Below, piece after piece: positions 42,804 through 48,076 of a stretch of 64,000 bases of DNA. How positions within the stretch are numbered: position 1 is the stretch's first letter; every line of letters begins with the position of its first letter. The notes under the pieces were generated by a model that saw only the letters and a program-made list of their open reading frames with translations, searched no databases and was not told the origin of the DNA. This stretch comes from Verrucomicrobiia bacterium (GTDB lineage: Bacteria; Verrucomicrobiota; Verrucomicrobiia; Verrucomicrobiales; DEV007): contig JAUICH010000008.1 of the NCBI GenBank assembly GCA_030427505.1, positions 62,001 through 126,000 on the forward strand. Direction: 5' to 3'. Both the position numbers and the translations under genes were made by a program.

Positions 42804-43123
42804 CCCTCTTTCTTGAGAGGATTTACACTGAATAGCTAACGCTAACCGTTCTCTGTTAGAGATCCGGAAAGCAGCAAGCCAATGCACGAAAGTGCGCTGG
42901 CCGCGAAAAGTAGTTAACGTATCTTACTTCATTATGCAGTTGTCAGAGAACAGGCCAGGCGCCTAGCGCCTGCAATCTGAAGGCATCGATTGTTTCTCGA
43001 CCGGAGAAGCAAAGTTGCTCTTTCTCAACATACTGGAACGATAGACAGACCATCGACTCATGATGGCCGCTGGAAGTCCGCTCTTCCTTCGCTACGGAAA
43101 CATGGCGAAGCTTAAGATCGGGA
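42804..43123 (+). other. 23S-5S spacer
   Basis: 320 bp, unusually long for this spacer. It contains the 3' strand of the 23S processing stem (42930-42951). No tRNA or protein gene was found. Confidence 0.6.
42930..42951 (+). promoter_or_regulatory. 3' strand of the 23S processing stem
   Basis: CATTATGCAGTTGTCAGAGA plus AC, complementary to 39741-39762. It would pair in the primary transcript and bring both ends of 23S together for RNase III. Confidence 0.75.
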
Positions 43124-43240
43124 TTCTGGTGACCATAGCGTAGTGGAACCACCCGGCTCCATCCCGAACCCGGAAGTGAAACGCTGCAGCGCCGATGGTA
43201 GTGCGGCGATAGGCCGTGTGAGAGTAGGTCGTTGCCAGTT
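43124..43240 (+). rRNA. rrf: 5S ribosomal RNA
   Basis: It shows the typical 5S layout: terminal helix strand TTCTGGTGACC, loop B region GGAACCACCCGGCTCCATCC, CCGAACCCGGAAGTGAAAC, then GCCGATGGTAGT and the 3' strand GTTGCCAG. Length is about 115 nt; the ends are approximate. Confidence 0.95.
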
Positions 43241-43245
43241 TAATT

Positions 43246-43275
43246 ACCACCCCGTCTCCGGACGGGGTGGTTTTT
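43246..43275 (+). terminator. Rho-independent terminator of the rRNA operon
   Basis: An 11-bp stem ACCACCCCGTC (43246-43256) against GACGGGGTGGT (43261-43271), tetraloop TCCG, and a T5 tract ending at 43275. It starts about 6 bp after 5S. Confidence 0.95.
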
Positions 43276-43354: not shown

Positions 43355-44599
43355 CTACTCTAAGTAGATTTCCGTATTAAGTGAATGGGCTTCGCTCGCG
43401 AAAGGCCATTCAAAGCGCTCAACCTGATTGAGAAGAACGGACTCAGGCACCGGGTCCGGGCGTTCCTGATTTCGCTTTGCCAGGACGTTCCACGGCACTG
43501 AGAAAGCAACTACTTTCACGTAGGCTCCGTAGTCGAGACCTGCCCGAATCAACGGAGCCCGGCGGTCCCGTGTTAGAGATGTCGCATCCCAAATGACAGG
43601 CCGGCCTTTGGCCAAGTGATTTCGCAATTCCGCTTGGGCCGATTGTAACACGCGGCCTTCCATCCGGCGGGTCATTCGTTTGACGTCCAAGTCCTTCCGC
43701 AGACGATCCAAGCTGACTACGGCGTGACCGTTTCCGTAATCTTCGACCCAGGTGGTTTTTCCCGAGGCGGCGGGGCCGCATAGAAGGGTCAGGGCGCAAG
43801 AAGGACGGTCCCTCCAGCTGTAAGACCGGGCAATTGCTTCCTGGGGCGTGGCGATCTTGCCCGCCTCCGCGTCCCGAATGCCTTGAGCCAGAACGTGTTG
43901 CCGGAACGAGTCGGGTTGATCTGAAAGCTCTGTGTTGATGACTTCCTCCCAGTCCTTCCAGGGGGCCGGGTTGTTCCAGAGTCCTAATTCCACGGCCATC
44001 AGGCGAAAAAGCTCCAGCTTTTCCAGAGCGCTCTCGTTACCTCCTTGGTTCCTCCGGCCCCGGAGATCGGCGAGGGCCAGGAGATAGACCAACTCCAGGT
44101 CGCAGAGCCGGGCCAGTTTGCGGAACCCGAACTCTCCAGCTTCATCTGAGATCAATTTTCGAGGATCGTGGTGGTGTCCGATGCCTTCCAGGATTCGGGC
44201 GATATTTTCCCAGGGAAGACCCAGGGCATGATGCCGCATGGCAAACCAGGAGCGTCCCACGGCAGGGTGGCGGGGAGAGACGATCCGTTCTCGCCCATCC
44301 ATCTCCGCTTTACGGGTGGTGAAGATTTTCCCCACGTCATGCAGCAGGGCGGAGAGCGCGAGAATTCGTTTCTTTTCCGGGGAAAGATGTGTGCCTTCGC
44401 CGCCAGGCTTAAGAATTTCGCCCATTTCCGTGAGAACCATATCGGTGTGAACGCCTGCGTGACCTTCCGCGTGCCACTCCGGATCTTGAGGGGTATCTTC
44501 CAGTTCCCTCAGCGTCACGAAATCTCCGCCCAGGCCCTCAATCCATTCGGAAAGGGAAGGGACTTGGCGGCTGGCAATTCGCTGGAGAAAGGGATGCAC
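43355..44599 (-). CDS. HD-Pnk: HD-domain phosphoesterase fused to 5'-OH polynucleotide kinase
   Basis: The protein has 414 residues from GTG 44599; an in-frame TAG lies 12 nt upstream, so no longer start exists. The N-terminal HD domain has ALSALLHDVGKIF (H87-D88), flanking His at 43-51, H124 and GHHHDPRK (142-145). The C-terminal kinase has the P-loop CGPAASGKTTW (275-284), SLDRLRKDL with the DxxR motif (D298, R301), and VIWDATSLTRDRR with lid arginines. This order matches HD-Pnk of Runella slithyformis, which heals broken ends: HD removes 2',3'-cyclic or 3' phosphate and Pnk phosphorylates 5'-OH. It diverges from a methyltransferase-RNA ligase pair, which would seal the healed ends. It converges on the rRNA operon terminator. 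Confidence 0.88.
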   Translation of the reverse strand: MHPFLQRIASRQVPSLSEWIEGLGGDFVTLRELEDTPQDPEWHAEGHAGVHTDMVLTEMGEILKPGGEGTHLSPEKKRILALSALLHDVGKIFTTRKAEMDGRERIVSPRHPAVGRSWFAMRHHALGLPWENIARILEGIGHHHDPRKLISDEAGEFGFRKLARLCDLELVYLLALADLRGRRNQGGNESALEKLELFRLMAVELGLWNNPAPWKDWEEVINTELSDQPDSFRQHVLAQGIRDAEAGKIATPQEAIARSYSWRDRPSCALTLLCGPAASGKTTWVEDYGNGHAVVSLDRLRKDLDVKRMTRRMEGRVLQSAQAELRNHLAKGRPVIWDATSLTRDRRAPLIRAGLDYGAYVKVVAFSVPWNVLAKRNQERPDPVPESVLLNQVERFEWPFASEAHSLNTEIYLE

Positions 44600-44619
44600 G
44601 GAAAGTAACTAGACTGCGC

Positions 44620-45348
44620 GTGATTCTCTCCGAAATCCAGGAATTCTACTTTGTCAGACTCGCCGCGGCCATGGTCCGGGGTAAGGTGTTGTGGGGCCAG
44701 TTGCCTTCGAACGTTTTCCCGGAAGCGTGGGTTCGCGAAGACTGGGCAACCTTATCAGACCTTGAGTGTGTGGAGATTACCCAGGCGGGTTTGGCGAGTG
44801 GTCTCAGGCTGCACCGGTTCAAGCGGACGATGAACCTTTCCAGGGTTACGAAAGTCCTGGGAATGCTCCGGGCGTTTGATCCCGGTTCGCTGCTGGACAT
44901 CGGCAGCGGGAGGGGAGCGTTCTTGTGGCCCTTGCTGGATGCGTTTCCCAACCTGCCGGTCATGGCGGTGGAAACTTCCGCGGTAAGAGCCCGTCAGATC
45001 GAAACGGTCGCAGCCGGCGGGGTGAAGAATATTTCCGTCATTCAAGGAGATGTCACAAAGAAAGAGACGGTGGACTCCCTTGAGAATCATGATGTGGTGA
45101 CTGCGTTGGAAGTGCTCGAGCATGTTCCAGAGGTGGAAGCGGCCTGCCGGGCCTGTGTCAGGCTTGCCAACCGGGCCGTCCTCGTGTCCGTGCCATCGAA
45201 GGAAGACGACAATCCCGAGCACATTCACTTACTGACCCGTTCACGCCTGGAGGGCCTTTTCGATCTTCCAGAGGTGAAGCGAATTCAGTTCGATGCCGTT
45301 CCGGGCCACCTTCTAGCCGTTGTTACCCTGAAAACCGAAAATGCCTGA
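44620..45348 (+). CDS. Class I SAM-dependent methyltransferase of the RNA repair cluster
   Basis: The protein has 242 residues from GTG 44620; ATG 44671 is an alternative that would widen the divergent promoter gap from 20 to 71 bp. The Rossmann methyltransferase core has SLLDIGSGRGAF (motif I, 90-101), VMAVETS, a VIQGDV acidic loop and ALEVLEHV (E164, E167, H168), then NPEHIHLLT (H201, H203). The E-x-x-E-H plus H-x-H pattern recalls the metal site of Hen1, the 3'-terminal 2'-O-methyltransferase in some bacterial RNA repair cassettes, but UbiE-type enzymes can look similar. It overlaps the ligase gene by 8 bp. RNA substrate is inferred from context. Confidence 0.82.
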   Translation: MILSEIQEFYFVRLAAAMVRGKVLWGQLPSNVFPEAWVREDWATLSDLECVEITQAGLASGLRLHRFKRTMNLSRVTKVLGMLRAFDPGSLLDIGSGRGAFLWPLLDAFPNLPVMAVETSAVRARQIETVAAGGVKNISVIQGDVTKKETVDSLENHDVVTALEVLEHVPEVEAACRACVRLANRAVLVSVPSKEDDNPEHIHLLTRSRLEGLFDLPEVKRIQFDAVPGHLLAVVTLKTENA

Positions 45349-46135
45349 ACCGCCATCCCTGGTTAAGTATCCCCGGACGCCTCATCTCGCCGGTTCGCGA
45401 CTCCAGCCGGGGGACGAGGACCTGGAAAGCGTTCCGTTTCAGAAACTTGCCGGGAGACACCTGGTGATCGAAGAGAAGGTGGATGGGGCGAATGCCGCCA
45501 TCAGTTTTGATGAAAAAGGAAACCTCTGGCTGCAGAGCCGGGGACACTACCTGACCGGCGGACCGAGAGAGAGACACTTTTCCCTTTTCAAGCAGTGGGC
45601 GAACCGGCACGCCGCCGCGTTTTGGGAGGTGCTGGGGGATCGCTACACGCTCTATGGAGAGTGGGTCTATGCCCGCCATACCCTTTTCTACACGCATCTG
45701 CCGCACTATTTTCTGGAGTTTGACGTGTTGGACCGGGAGGCCGGTGGTTTCCTGTCCACGTCCCGCCGCAGGGATTTGCTGGGCAGCGCTCCCATGGAAA
45801 GCGTTCCCGTGCTTCACGAAGGAACGCTTCAGGTTCCGTCTTCCATGACCGGAATGATTGGCCACTCTGCGTATATCGAAAAAGGGCATCTCCAGACACT
45901 CCGGGAGGTGTGCGAAAGCCGCGGACTCGATCCGGAGCAGGCCCTGCGAGAGACCGATCCCGAAGTGCTGATGGAAGGTCTTTACGTAAAGATAGAGGAA
46001 AACGGCCAAGTTGTAGAAAGGCTCAAGTTCATCCGGCCCTCATTCCTGACGGCGGTGCAAGAGTCGGGTTCACACTGGCTGGACCGGCCGATAATTCCCA
46101 ATCAACTGGCACCGGGTGCTCCATTTTTCGAGTAG
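45341..46135 (+). CDS. ATP-dependent RNA ligase family protein
   Basis: The protein has 264 residues. All nucleotidyltransferase motifs are visible: I, EEKVDGANA with the AMP-accepting K46; Ia, LQSRGHYLTGG (R67); III, YTLYGEWVYA; IIIa, YFLEFDVLDRE; IV, MEGLYVKIEE; and V, RLKFIR. Length and motif spacing fit the small RNA ligases of the Rnl2/DRB0094-like group rather than DNA ligases. It seals 3'-OH and 5'-phosphate ends, the products expected from the adjacent HD-Pnk. The start lies within the methyltransferase stop region (AATGCCTGA), so translation is coupled. Confidence 0.88.
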   Translation: MPEPPSLVKYPRTPHLAGSRLQPGDEDLESVPFQKLAGRHLVIEEKVDGANAAISFDEKGNLWLQSRGHYLTGGPRERHFSLFKQWANRHAAAFWEVLGDRYTLYGEWVYARHTLFYTHLPHYFLEFDVLDREAGGFLSTSRRRDLLGSAPMESVPVLHEGTLQVPSSMTGMIGHSAYIEKGHLQTLREVCESRGLDPEQALRETDPEVLMEGLYVKIEENGQVVERLKFIRPSFLTAVQESGSHWLDRPIIPNQLAPGAPFFE

Positions 46136-46218
46136 GATGAAAAGTGCACTGGGATTGATCTCTGATGGCGAATGTGATTCGTTGTTTTGGTAAGTCATTG
46201 AAAAGACCCAATACGGCT

Positions 46219-47226
46219 ATGTTTCGAACACCCCGATTCCATTCCGCTACATTTTTTGCAACGGCCGTGCTTTGTCTGTGGAACACTTTCAGCAGCTGGG
46301 CGCAGGACGGTTCCGTTACCCTCGAAGCGACCTATGCTCCTGGTAAGGAATACCACATGACCCTGGAGAACAACATCGTCATGCAGATTCCCTTTGGCGA
46401 GCAGTCCATGGAGCAGAAGGTAAACATGACCCAAAGCTTCATCATTCAGAGTTGGGCACCGGACGAAGAAGCGGACGCCCAGGCGGCCACGGTCTTAAAG
46501 GCGACATTGGATCACGTGGTGATGAAGACCACCGCCATGGGCATGGACATGACCTATGATTCCAAACAAACAGATGGTGGAGCGAATCTTTTCGCCCCCA
46601 TGTTCGCGGACATTCTGGGGCGTCTGGTGCGGCTGGAACTGGACTCGGAGGGGAACGTTCTTTCCGTGGAGGCGGAAGGCAACGCCGCTGGGGGAGAGAG
46701 CCCGGCCCCGGCTGGCGCGGGCGGATTGGGGGCCATGTCCGCCAAACTGGGTCCGGAAGTCTTGGAGCAGTTCGTGGTGGCCCTGACGGCGTCCCTTCCG
46801 GGAAACACCGTGAAGCCGGGCGATACCTGGTCGACGGACCGGGAACTGGCGGCTGGAAGTTACGGCGCGATGATGGCGGACCTGACCTTTACCTATACGG
46901 GCGACGAGGAAATGGATGGGCACCCCGTGGCGGTTATCGAGACCGTTGGGAAATTTGCCGGCGAAGTCGACCTTGAGGCGGCTGGAGTAGGCTCCGGGGA
47001 TACGGCAGGAGGCTTGGGCCCGGTTTCCGCTATCCAGATCGACGAGTCCACCATTTCCGGAAAGCTGTGCTTCGACAAGGCGCTCGGCATTCAGCGGTAT
47101 TCCGAGCAGTCCATGGACTTGACCATCACCATGCCAAATCCCCTTGGCGGAGAGGCGCCCATGACCGTGCCGATGAAGCAAAAGACCGTGATCCATCTGG
47201 ATTCCGTAGCCGATATCAAGGAATAG
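46219..47226 (+). CDS. Secreted protein, DUF6263-like
   Basis: The protein has 335 residues from ATG 46219, chosen because it places a signal peptide (MFRTPRFHSATFFATAVLCL, cleaved near SWA-QDG) at the N-terminus; ATG 46165 adds 18 residues. The mature part is beta-rich: YHMTLENNIVMQIPFGEQSM, a Gly/Ala/Pro-rich loop near 160-180, LPGNTVKPGDTWS and KTVIHLDSV. The pattern matches the DUF6263 lipoprotein/periplasmic family, without known function. It lies 83 bp after the RNA ligase and is probably not part of that system. Confidence 0.72.
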   Translation: MFRTPRFHSATFFATAVLCLWNTFSSWAQDGSVTLEATYAPGKEYHMTLENNIVMQIPFGEQSMEQKVNMTQSFIIQSWAPDEEADAQAATVLKATLDHVVMKTTAMGMDMTYDSKQTDGGANLFAPMFADILGRLVRLELDSEGNVLSVEAEGNAAGGESPAPAGAGGLGAMSAKLGPEVLEQFVVALTASLPGNTVKPGDTWSTDRELAAGSYGAMMADLTFTYTGDEEMDGHPVAVIETVGKFAGEVDLEAAGVGSGDTAGGLGPVSAIQIDESTISGKLCFDKALGIQRYSEQSMDLTITMPNPLGGEAPMTVPMKQKTVIHLDSVADIKE

Positions 47227-47284
47227 CCGCCGCTGGGCAATTCCTGCGTTGCGCATCCGGCGGAGCGGCCAGATGTAGAGACAG

Positions 47285-48076
47285 ATGATCGCAGAAGCCA
47301 ACCCCTTCCTTGCCGGTGTGGTTCATCTCCCGGCGCTGCCCGGCGCGCCCCGCTACGCGGGCAGCATGGACACCGTGATCGAGCGCGCCCTGCACGATGC
47401 GCGGACTTACGAGCACGGCGGGATGGACGCGTTGATCATCGAGAATTTTGGCGACGCGCCATTCACCGCTGGAACGGTGGAGCCTGAGACGCTGGCCGCC
47501 ATGGCTTGCGCGGCACAGGCCATTAAAGAAGAAATTTCGATTCCTTACGGGTTCAATGTGCTGCGGAATGACGCGCACTCCGCCCTGGCACTCTGTGCCG
47601 CCGCGGGTGGCACCTTTATCCGGGTGAACGTGCATTCAGGGGCGATGGTGACGGACCAGGGAATCATCCAGGGCCAGGCCTATTCCACGATGCGGAAGCG
47701 CGCGGCGATTTGCCCGGCGGTCCGGGTGTTTGCGGACATTTTGGTCAAACATGCCGCTCCGCTCGGCGAAGCGCCGATCGAAAAGGCCGCTCTGGACACG
47801 CTCCAGCGGGGGCAGGCGGATGGGCTCATTGTGTCCGGCTGGGGCACCGGCGCCGCCGTGGTGGAGGAAGATTTGAAGGCCGTTCGCGGAGTCTGTCCGA
47901 ATGCCTTCCTGCTGGTCGGCAGTGGGGCCAATGTCGAAAACGTGAAGGATCTGCTCGCCTATGCGGACGGCGTCATTGTGGGAAGTTCTCTCAAATACGA
48001 CGGCCATTTGACGAACCCGGTGGACTTCGACCGGGTCCAGGCTTTCGTCGCTGCCGCCCGCGGGCTGGATGATTGA
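47285..48076 (+). CDS. BtpA/SgcQ family TIM-barrel protein
   Basis: The protein has 263 residues. It has the BtpA-family pattern: GVVHLPALPGAPRYAG at the N-terminus, DALIIENFGDAPF, GFNVLRNDAHSALALCAA, FIRVNVHSGA, SGWGTG and VGSGANVENVKDLL, ending in GVIVGSSLK. The fold is a phosphate-binding (beta/alpha)8 barrel. Members are linked to photosystem I biogenesis in cyanobacteria (BtpA) and to sugar metabolism in enterobacteria (SgcQ); here the reaction is unknown. It begins 58 bp after the DUF6263-like gene. Confidence 0.9.
   Translation: MIAEANPFLAGVVHLPALPGAPRYAGSMDTVIERALHDARTYEHGGMDALIIENFGDAPFTAGTVEPETLAAMACAAQAIKEEISIPYGFNVLRNDAHSALALCAAAGGTFIRVNVHSGAMVTDQGIIQGQAYSTMRKRAAICPAVRVFADILVKHAAPLGEAPIEKAALDTLQRGQADGLIVSGWGTGAAVVEEDLKAVRGVCPNAFLLVGSGANVENVKDLLAYADGVIVGSSLKYDGHLTNPVDFDRVQAFVAAARGLDD

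Follow-up and report, generated by a model that had tools for sequence, protein, structure and literature searches.

We examined a window of 64,000 nucleotides of contig JAUICH010000008.1 from a Verrucomicrobiia bacterium (the window is that whole stretch, and all positions are given on it) and found that three genes packed in 2.8 kb encode a predicted HD-Pnk, a class I S-adenosylmethionine (SAM) methyltransferase and an ATP-dependent RNA ligase. The trio is a conserved operon and no chance cluster. We could demonstrate the genes, their motifs, their predicted folds and the conserved adjacency of the three, and the reading of the cluster as a repair cassette is well supported, its enzymatic activities being predicted. 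We further propose, at what we regard as even chances, that the cassette would heal, mark and seal broken RNA, the mark being a 2'-O-methyl group placed on the terminal ribose before sealing.

A conserved operon of three genes

The three open reading frames (ORFs) are real and intact, and they are arranged as follows.

43355-44599, minus strand: HD-Pnk of the DRB0098 type, 414 aa, GTG start; HD domain at about residues 43-182, kinase at about 270-404
44600-44619, no strand: start-to-start gap of 20 bp between the divergent HD-Pnk and methyltransferase genes
44620-45348, plus strand: class I SAM methyltransferase, 242 aa, GTG start; ExxEH at residues 164-168, H201 and H203; candidate marking enzyme
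45341-46135, plus strand: ATP-dependent RNA ligase (PF09414), 264 aa, ATG start; K46xDG, R67, E107, E212 and K229

The methyltransferase and ligase genes overlap by exactly 8 bp, the ligase start codon lying inside the methyltransferase gene, and we confirmed both the coordinates of the divergent cluster and the 8-bp coupling given in an initial annotation of this DNA. Each of the three proteins has one match in the 6.4-Mb assembly. Catalytic residues are kept in all three when they are aligned with their relatives (55 HD-Pnk, 56 ligase and 43 methyltransferase rows), as that annotation had also stated.

Conservation was followed in a ligase scan of one-per-species genomes, from which we took the best 80 of 194 confirmed loci; the ORFs of these loci (flanks of at most 8 kb) were searched with the three window proteins and the gaps were then measured. 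At 54 of the 80 loci a methyltransferase gene lies at most 300 nt upstream of the ligase and an HD-Pnk gene at most 400 nt downstream, on the same strand and mostly with small gaps or overlaps. At three further loci the HD-Pnk is adjacent and the methyltransferase farther off, at one both are elsewhere in the locus, and at three neither was found; every locus that bears the methyltransferase also holds an HD-Pnk (58/58), with all matches on the ligase strand. The 58 include L076, where the ORF counted as the methyltransferase runs 214 nt into the ligase in a different frame and could be a broken gene. The initial annotation had made the combined system depend on the genes being kept as neighbours (and on the family of the methyltransferase, discussed below), and neighbours they are. 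Record titles and the labels in the trees place the trio in Bacillota, Planctomycetota, Acidobacteriota, Chloroflexota and Kiritimatiellota, with doubtful labels for two metagenome-assembled hosts (L080 'Chloroflexi' and L095 'Bacteroides'), both of which fall among Bacillota in the trees.

Viewed from the methyltransferase side, few genomes have this family. At E<=1e-25 the window's phylum gave matches in 2 genomes out of 288; the class of the cultured Lachnoclostridium sp. An131 (G059), host of locus L033, gave 1 out of 196 and its taxonomic family 5 out of 397, in searches that scored part of the candidates in each genome (9 of 42 in the window's). These gave seven distinct genomes (one shared), with an HD-Pnk alongside in all seven and a ligase in six within the fetched flanks; one of the seven is the window's own, four had also come up in the ligase scan (two recognised by identical DNA and two by genome handle) and two are independent. 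Two of the seven have features of their own. In the one without a ligase, G855 (L123, 3996-7524, from the search of the Lachnoclostridium family), a single apparent deletion has taken the end of the methyltransferase, the ligase and a piece of the HD-Pnk's HD domain, and beside it one long ORF carries leucine-rich repeats, a cytidylyltransferase-like region and a NADAR region (read by eye). Within the window's phylum the second genome with a strong methyltransferase match, G338 (L122), shares 73.5% DNA identity over 1.8 kb with the Kiritimatiellae locus L094, a likeness that fits a Verrucomicrobiota-type placement of the window.

The distance matrices of the three proteins correlate closely (Mantel r 0.82-0.89, with 0 of 999 permutations as high) over 50 of the 58 trios, eight truncated, odd or distant ones having been left out. 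This correlation speaks for joint inheritance and not for function, as co-inheritance alone would give it.

A tblastn search of 72,556 plasmid records with the window methyltransferase gave no match at E<=1e-8; 21 of the records carry a relative of the ligase (26-58% identity in the 20 listed), and in the three plasmid stretches that we read an HD-Pnk match stands beside the ligase or one gene away. In one of them, on the large Pseudomonas aeruginosa plasmid NZ_OX638702.1 (L126), the ligase/HD-Pnk pair lies between two IS21-type transposase pairs. Phage records yielded distant ligases only (15 records, 25-33%), a viral contig scan gave two weak methyltransferase matches, and PADLOC reported nothing on the cluster besides Cas3/Cas10 HD and mad2 methyltransferase matches.

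Predicted activities and the proposed pathway

HD-Pnk is reportedly often encoded beside a ligase. In a Pfam search the window protein, taken as 408 of its 414 aa (six C-terminal residues short), matched the HD domain PF01966 at residues 58-178 (26.7 bits, cut-off 22) and the kinase domain AAA_33 at residues 270-398 (87.6 bits, cut-off 27); it has the HD-Pnk architecture of an N-terminal HD phosphohydrolase and a C-terminal P-loop polynucleotide kinase in one polypeptide. It shares 37.4% identity over 93% of its length with DRB0098 of Deinococcus radiodurans (E 8e-51) and 41-44% with three other Deinococcus proteins, in agreement with the HD-Pnk identity first proposed for it. All 55 aligned rows keep the HD residues H43, H51, H87, D88, H111 and D178 and the kinase residues K281, D298, R301, R347 and R380; of these, H87, D88, H111 and D178 are catalytic in the HD domain and K281, D298, R301 and R380 in the kinase. 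Phmmer matched the kinase domain to the solved bacterial Pnkp kinase domain and to T4 Pnk. An identity as bacterial Pnkp was rejected, at 40.8 bits where the Pnkp model needs 750, and the choice of HD-Pnk over Pnkp in the initial annotation stands. In PMC1997131, the HD pair and the lid arginine of DRB0098 are named, its 5' kinase activity is assayed and its 3' phosphatase activity is left open. The window protein is, from its sequence, a full-length relative of DRB0098, with predicted 5'-OH kinase and 3' phosphoesterase activities.

The identity of the RNA ligase was likewise upheld, with a PF09414 score of 112 bits (cut-off 27) and an RNA-ligase fold. The window protein keeps the motifs K46xDG, R67, E107, E212 and K229, and K46, D48, G49, E107, E212 and K229 are invariant in 17 ligase rows. 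When its AlphaFold model (predicted local distance difference test, pLDDT, 94.2) was used in Foldseek, the first 26 rows were all RNA ligases, among them T4 Rnl2 (E 2.8e-6) and archaeal, Naegleria and trypanosome editing ligases, whereas the first row titled DNA ligase ranked 27th and replicative-type DNA ligases appeared from rank 36 on. The modelled fold is that of an RNA ligase rather than a DNA ligase, and a sealing activity is predicted. The ligase is about 60% identical to those of the trio loci and 27.8% identical to DRB0100, the ligase of the D. radiodurans operon.

The methyltransferase matches class I models (Methyltransf_12, 39.6 bits, cut-off 30), and its named relatives are all distant. 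Its AlphaFold model has a pLDDT of 95.0; the N-terminal residues 1-66 are helical, and residues 1-64 are barely covered by structural matches. E164, E167, H168 and H201 are invariant in 43 family rows and H203 is kept in 53 of 59; the operon family also has an invariant set of its own, namely K68, R75, GxGRG and PxxxDxNPxH. By these sequence features it is a member of a small, distinct family.

From these parts the following pathway can be proposed, in which end healing and sealing would proceed as in characterised relatives. The HD domain would take a 2',3'-cyclic or 3' phosphate off the upstream RNA fragment, leaving a 2',3'-diol, and the kinase domain would put a phosphate on the 5'-OH end of the fragment downstream. 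Next, the methyltransferase would methylate the last ribose of the healed upstream fragment, most likely at the 2'-O, with a metal held by ExxEH...H, and the ATP-dependent ligase would seal a junction that the same ribonuclease could not cut again. The corresponding residues of Hen1, the marking enzyme of other bacterial repair systems, bind metal. Hen1 and UbiG each act on one of two neighbouring hydroxyls, and 2'-O-methylation of ribose is favoured here because a 3'-terminal ribose healed by the HD domain would carry just such a diol. Judged from its context and the shared metal-site pattern alone, a 2'-O-methyl step seems the most likely one.

Weighing the marking step and rival explanations

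Several results weigh against this reading, and they concern first the methyltransferase itself. It had been called Hen1-like, and this could not be established: against the bacterial Hen1 model (TIGR04074), the protein (METHYLTRANSFERASE) scores 27.8 bits where the cut-off is 340, and identity as Hen1 was rejected. The match spans profile positions 263-397 of 462 only, and the 242-aa protein lacks the Hen1 N-domain. The substrate motifs TTPNxEYN and DHRFEWTR (FEWTR) are absent from it in an alignment with five true Hen1 proteins (a sixth, L106, stood outside this alignment, as no full ORF was recovered). At E<=0.001, the 43 family members match the MftM model in 43 cases, BioC in 43, UbiG in 42 and Hen1 in 30 (best Hen1 E 4.6e-9), and on the window protein MftM and UbiG score somewhat higher than Hen1. 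A comparison with the profile of the five true Hen1 did align the ExxEH and the later histidine (probability 96.3%, E 1.5e-9, 144 columns). The ExxEH plus histidine pattern on which the initial annotation relied is thus present; however, E. coli UbiG has it too, hence it is not diagnostic of Hen1. The profile hidden Markov model (HMM) search which that annotation suggested for the three proteins places HD, AAA_33 and PF09414 over their cut-offs and leaves Hen1 under its own. In structure comparison Hen1 domains (Z 15.9-16.5) and unrelated methyltransferases (up to Z 16.8) are tied, and we dropped the fold as a guide to the methyl acceptor, since Hen1 and small-molecule methyltransferases scored alike.

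The distribution of true Hen1 is weakly suggestive. The window genome has no Hen1 above the cut-off, its best match to the model being this very methyltransferase (26.4 bits). Among the 65 of 80 host genomes that were searched (15 and 50, the latter at E<=1e-50; the 15 omitted all bear the methyltransferase), Hen1 was above the cut-off in 8 of 22 hosts without the methyltransferase vs 1 of 43 with it (p 0.0004), or 8/22 vs 2/43 (p 0.002) when a contig-cut Hen1 in the host of L064 is counted. Five of the eight are cyanobacteria, without which the contrast is 3/14 vs 2/43 (p 0.09). The host of L064, a member of the Ktedonobacterales that carries the trio, has a Pnkp (674.9 bits) beside the Hen1 fragment (L107, G064), and both repair types can probably coexist in one genome. 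A strong mutual exclusion of the two methyltransferases, which we had entertained as a candidate, is weakened by this host and by the cyanobacteria, and this too counts against the proposed mark.

The alternative that survives best, which we hold possible though a good deal short of even, is that the trio is a true RNA repair operon whose methyltransferase has another target: a base close to the break, a 5' phosphate, an ADP-ribose-linked product, or a nucleotide of intact tRNA or ribosomal RNA (rRNA) that it would shield beforehand. The family is equally close to MftM, BioC, UbiG and Hen1, and the Hen1 substrate motifs are missing, which suits such a role; however, the Hen1-type site residues, as well as the position of the ligase start codon within the methyltransferase gene, fit a methyl step at the break. 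Also in its favour are ADP-ribose hydrolase genes, which occur at 24 of the 58 methyltransferase loci vs 1 of the 22 without it (p 0.001, a contrast confounded by taxonomy and flank length). The same apparent operons contain 133 further ORFs, 116 of them of suitable length, and the 73 scanned with Pfam gave 67 families in all: ADP-ribosylglycohydrolase (7), NADAR (7), cytidylyltransferase-like (5), calcineurin-like phosphoesterase (4), Sel1 (3), macro (2) and many found once. NADAR and PARG-type families act on ADP-ribosylated RNA and also on DNA (PMC11833690), and the HD-Pnk operon of D. radiodurans contains a microbial PARG, an enzyme that takes ADP-ribose off the 2'-OH of RNA and shields cells from a toxin that attaches it there.

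We also consider, as a rather doubtful extension of the proposed pathway, that the operon is modular, with ADP-ribose removal by ARH/DraG, NADAR, macro or PARG neighbours added to HD-Pnk healing, 2'-O-methyl marking by an enzyme other than Hen1, and sealing. If this were true, one methyl mark would guard the repaired RNA from endonucleases and from 2'-OH-ADP-ribosylating toxins alike. At L044 (6175-7329) and L033 (5977-7170), in or beside the repair operon, NADAR is fused to a cytidylyltransferase-like (NadD-like) domain, hinting at a coupling of NAD/ADP-ribose metabolism to RNA repair. In the window itself, no ADP-ribose enzyme was found among the neighbours examined, including the two genes that follow the ligase at 46165-48076, which encode a DUF6263 protein and then a BtpA-family protein and which nothing ties to the repair cluster. 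The window genome has two NADAR genes unlinked to the cluster (C29:70934-71410 and C50:31725-32081; L135 and L136).

That the cassette mends DNA breaks instead of RNA breaks we judge unlikely. According to PMC1997131, irradiation strongly induces the HD-Pnk operon of D. radiodurans and the kinase acts on a DNA oligonucleotide; going by its title, another paper reports that this HD-Pnk abets resistance to radiation and mitomycin C. However, the 26 leading rows of the ligase fold search are RNA ligases, PMC1997131 saw no ligation of DNA by DRB0100, whether by itself or together with its two operon partners, and the neighbouring NADAR and PARG-type families point to RNA, though they also act on DNA.

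The remaining objections concern the company the genes keep. The methyltransferase can be missing: 19 of the 80 loci have an adjacent HD-Pnk and no methyltransferase match, and in four of the 22 loci without the methyltransferase (L043, L054, L059 and L087) the contig ends 66-656 nt upstream of the ligase. Of 57 related genomes, 15 have a ligase match, the window's included; the other 14 have the methyltransferase in no case (0/14, fetched flanks about 1.5 kb), and an HD-Pnk beside the ligase in 12. The relatives of the window's family and order (L002-L007 and L010-L015) have two types of ligase and HD-Pnk pair, one DRB0100-like and one separate, with no methyltransferase in the fetched flanks. 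In five of them (L011-L015), the ligases are of the DRB0100 type (52-57% identity to it) and the HD-Pnks are close to the window's. We compared trees of 53 chosen rows, with some truncated loci and many Bacillota left out. In the HD-Pnk tree, the window's enzyme joins the DRB0098-type enzymes of these five relatives with a support of 100/100, while in the ligase tree its ligase is split from theirs, again at 100/100, and is placed, loosely, among those of the 80 loci, whether or not these have a methyltransferase next to them. The HD-Pnk is divergent in the window vs on the ligase strand at the 77 other loci that hold one.

The window appears to combine a resident Deinococcus-type HD-Pnk with an incoming methyltransferase-ligase pair, a direction and order of events that we infer from the sequences, and such an origin would explain the divergent arrangement. 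The base composition is suggestive of transfer at most: the cluster has a GC content of 57-58% vs 59.4% for the window, and a third-position GC (GC3) of 0.63-0.67 vs 0.75 for BtpA and 0.81 for DnaE. Because the HD-Pnk group of the five relatives pairs with a different ligase and no methyltransferase, the coupling of the three enzymes in the window can only be presumed. It would therefore be possible, if improbable, that the pair landed by accident beside the resident gene and that the three do not cooperate, as the disagreeing trees and the divergent orientation would allow. However, all active-site residues are kept with one match per gene in the assembly, the 20-bp gap and the 8-bp overlap leave the genes tightly packed, and a chance landing beside the sole HD-Pnk detected in 6.4 Mb seems unlikely to us. 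The promoters of the divergent genes would have to overlap coding sequence; a sigma-70-like promoter scan of the region gave one site vs 0.9 expected by chance.

The last rival, in which the cassette would work for the ribosome and act on rRNA, starts from the position of the cluster behind a plus-strand rRNA operon (16S, tRNA-Ala, tRNA-Ile, 23S and 5S), with these features at the junction.

43125-43240, plus strand: 5S rRNA (rRNA match)
43246-43271, plus strand: terminator-like hairpin 3' of the 5S gene, between the rRNA operon and the convergent HD-Pnk gene

The distance of about 80 bp in the initial annotation is correct, since the HD-Pnk stop codon (43355-43357) lies some 75-85 bp beyond the hairpin, and this 5S gene is the only one detected in the assembly. 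The 23S-5S spacer (42807-43124, about 318 bp between matches) is rather long. However, the HD-Pnk gene runs tail-to-tail with the rRNA operon, so it is not co-transcribed with it, and four rRNA patterns were found at none of the 80 related loci, a weak test given flanks of at most 8 kb and metagenome assemblies that often have no rRNA. Nearness to the rRNA operon thus says little, the suggestion of rRNA or tRNA targets finds no support beyond this position, and we consider this rival scarcely credible.

Comparison with known repair systems

The HD-Pnk/ligase half of the cassette is already known. We did not find a methyltransferase with HD-Pnk described in the literature searched, though an earlier description is possible, as the 2016 RNA repair survey of Burroughs and Aravind and the HD-Pnk papers of the Shuman group fell outside that search. 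The nearest relative of this half is the DRB0100-DRB0099-DRB0098 module of D. radiodurans, which has a homologous HD-Pnk with an ATP-dependent ligase beside it and in which DRB0099 is a PARG_cat_microb protein, ADP-ribose hydrolases being recurrent beside HD-Pnk/ligase genes. Unlike that module, the window has a methyltransferase, a divergent HD-Pnk and no ADP-ribose hydrolase among the neighbours examined, and it has a ligase of another kind than DRB0100 (27.8% identical to it, vs 52-57% for the ligases of L011-L015). Membership of this module was rejected on ligase identity and trees.

The methyltransferase resembles UbiG, MftM and other class I O-methyltransferases in its Rossmann fold and HMM scores, and UbiG also in the ExxEH and later histidine. 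It differs from them in the invariant residues of its family and in being seen only in loci that hold an HD-Pnk (58/58 and 7/7).

Marking RNA repair in bacteria is documented for the Pnkp-Hen1 and Pnkp1-Rnl-Hen1 systems, the latter known from Capnocytophaga. Both have the same four predicted activities as the cassette, with kinase and phosphatase in one protein. They differ in that the window would heal 3' ends by an HD domain, distinct from the phosphatase families of these systems, and in that its methyltransferase is no Hen1 by model and has no N-domain. Membership of either type was rejected, with no Pnkp by model and no Hen1 over the cut-off in the window genome. In PMC4411300, hen1 lies far from the Pnkp1-Rnl operon, unlike the three genes found together here; all three proteins are needed for the repair of cleaved tRNA, SAM speeds ligation, and the repaired, methylated tRNA resists colicin D.

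If our reading is true, the methyltransferase-ligase-HD-Pnk operon, found in several phyla, would solve the problem of repairing and marking RNA independently, with proteins of other families. HD-Pnk/ligase pairs would gain a clear RNA role, and the operon would offer a ready three-gene system that can be tested. Its frequent ADP-ribose hydrolase neighbours link it to the removal of ADP-ribose from RNA, a reaction described recently. On the best reading, by analogy, the cassette has the same predicted activities as Pnkp1-Rnl-Hen1, drawn from different families and independently assembled.

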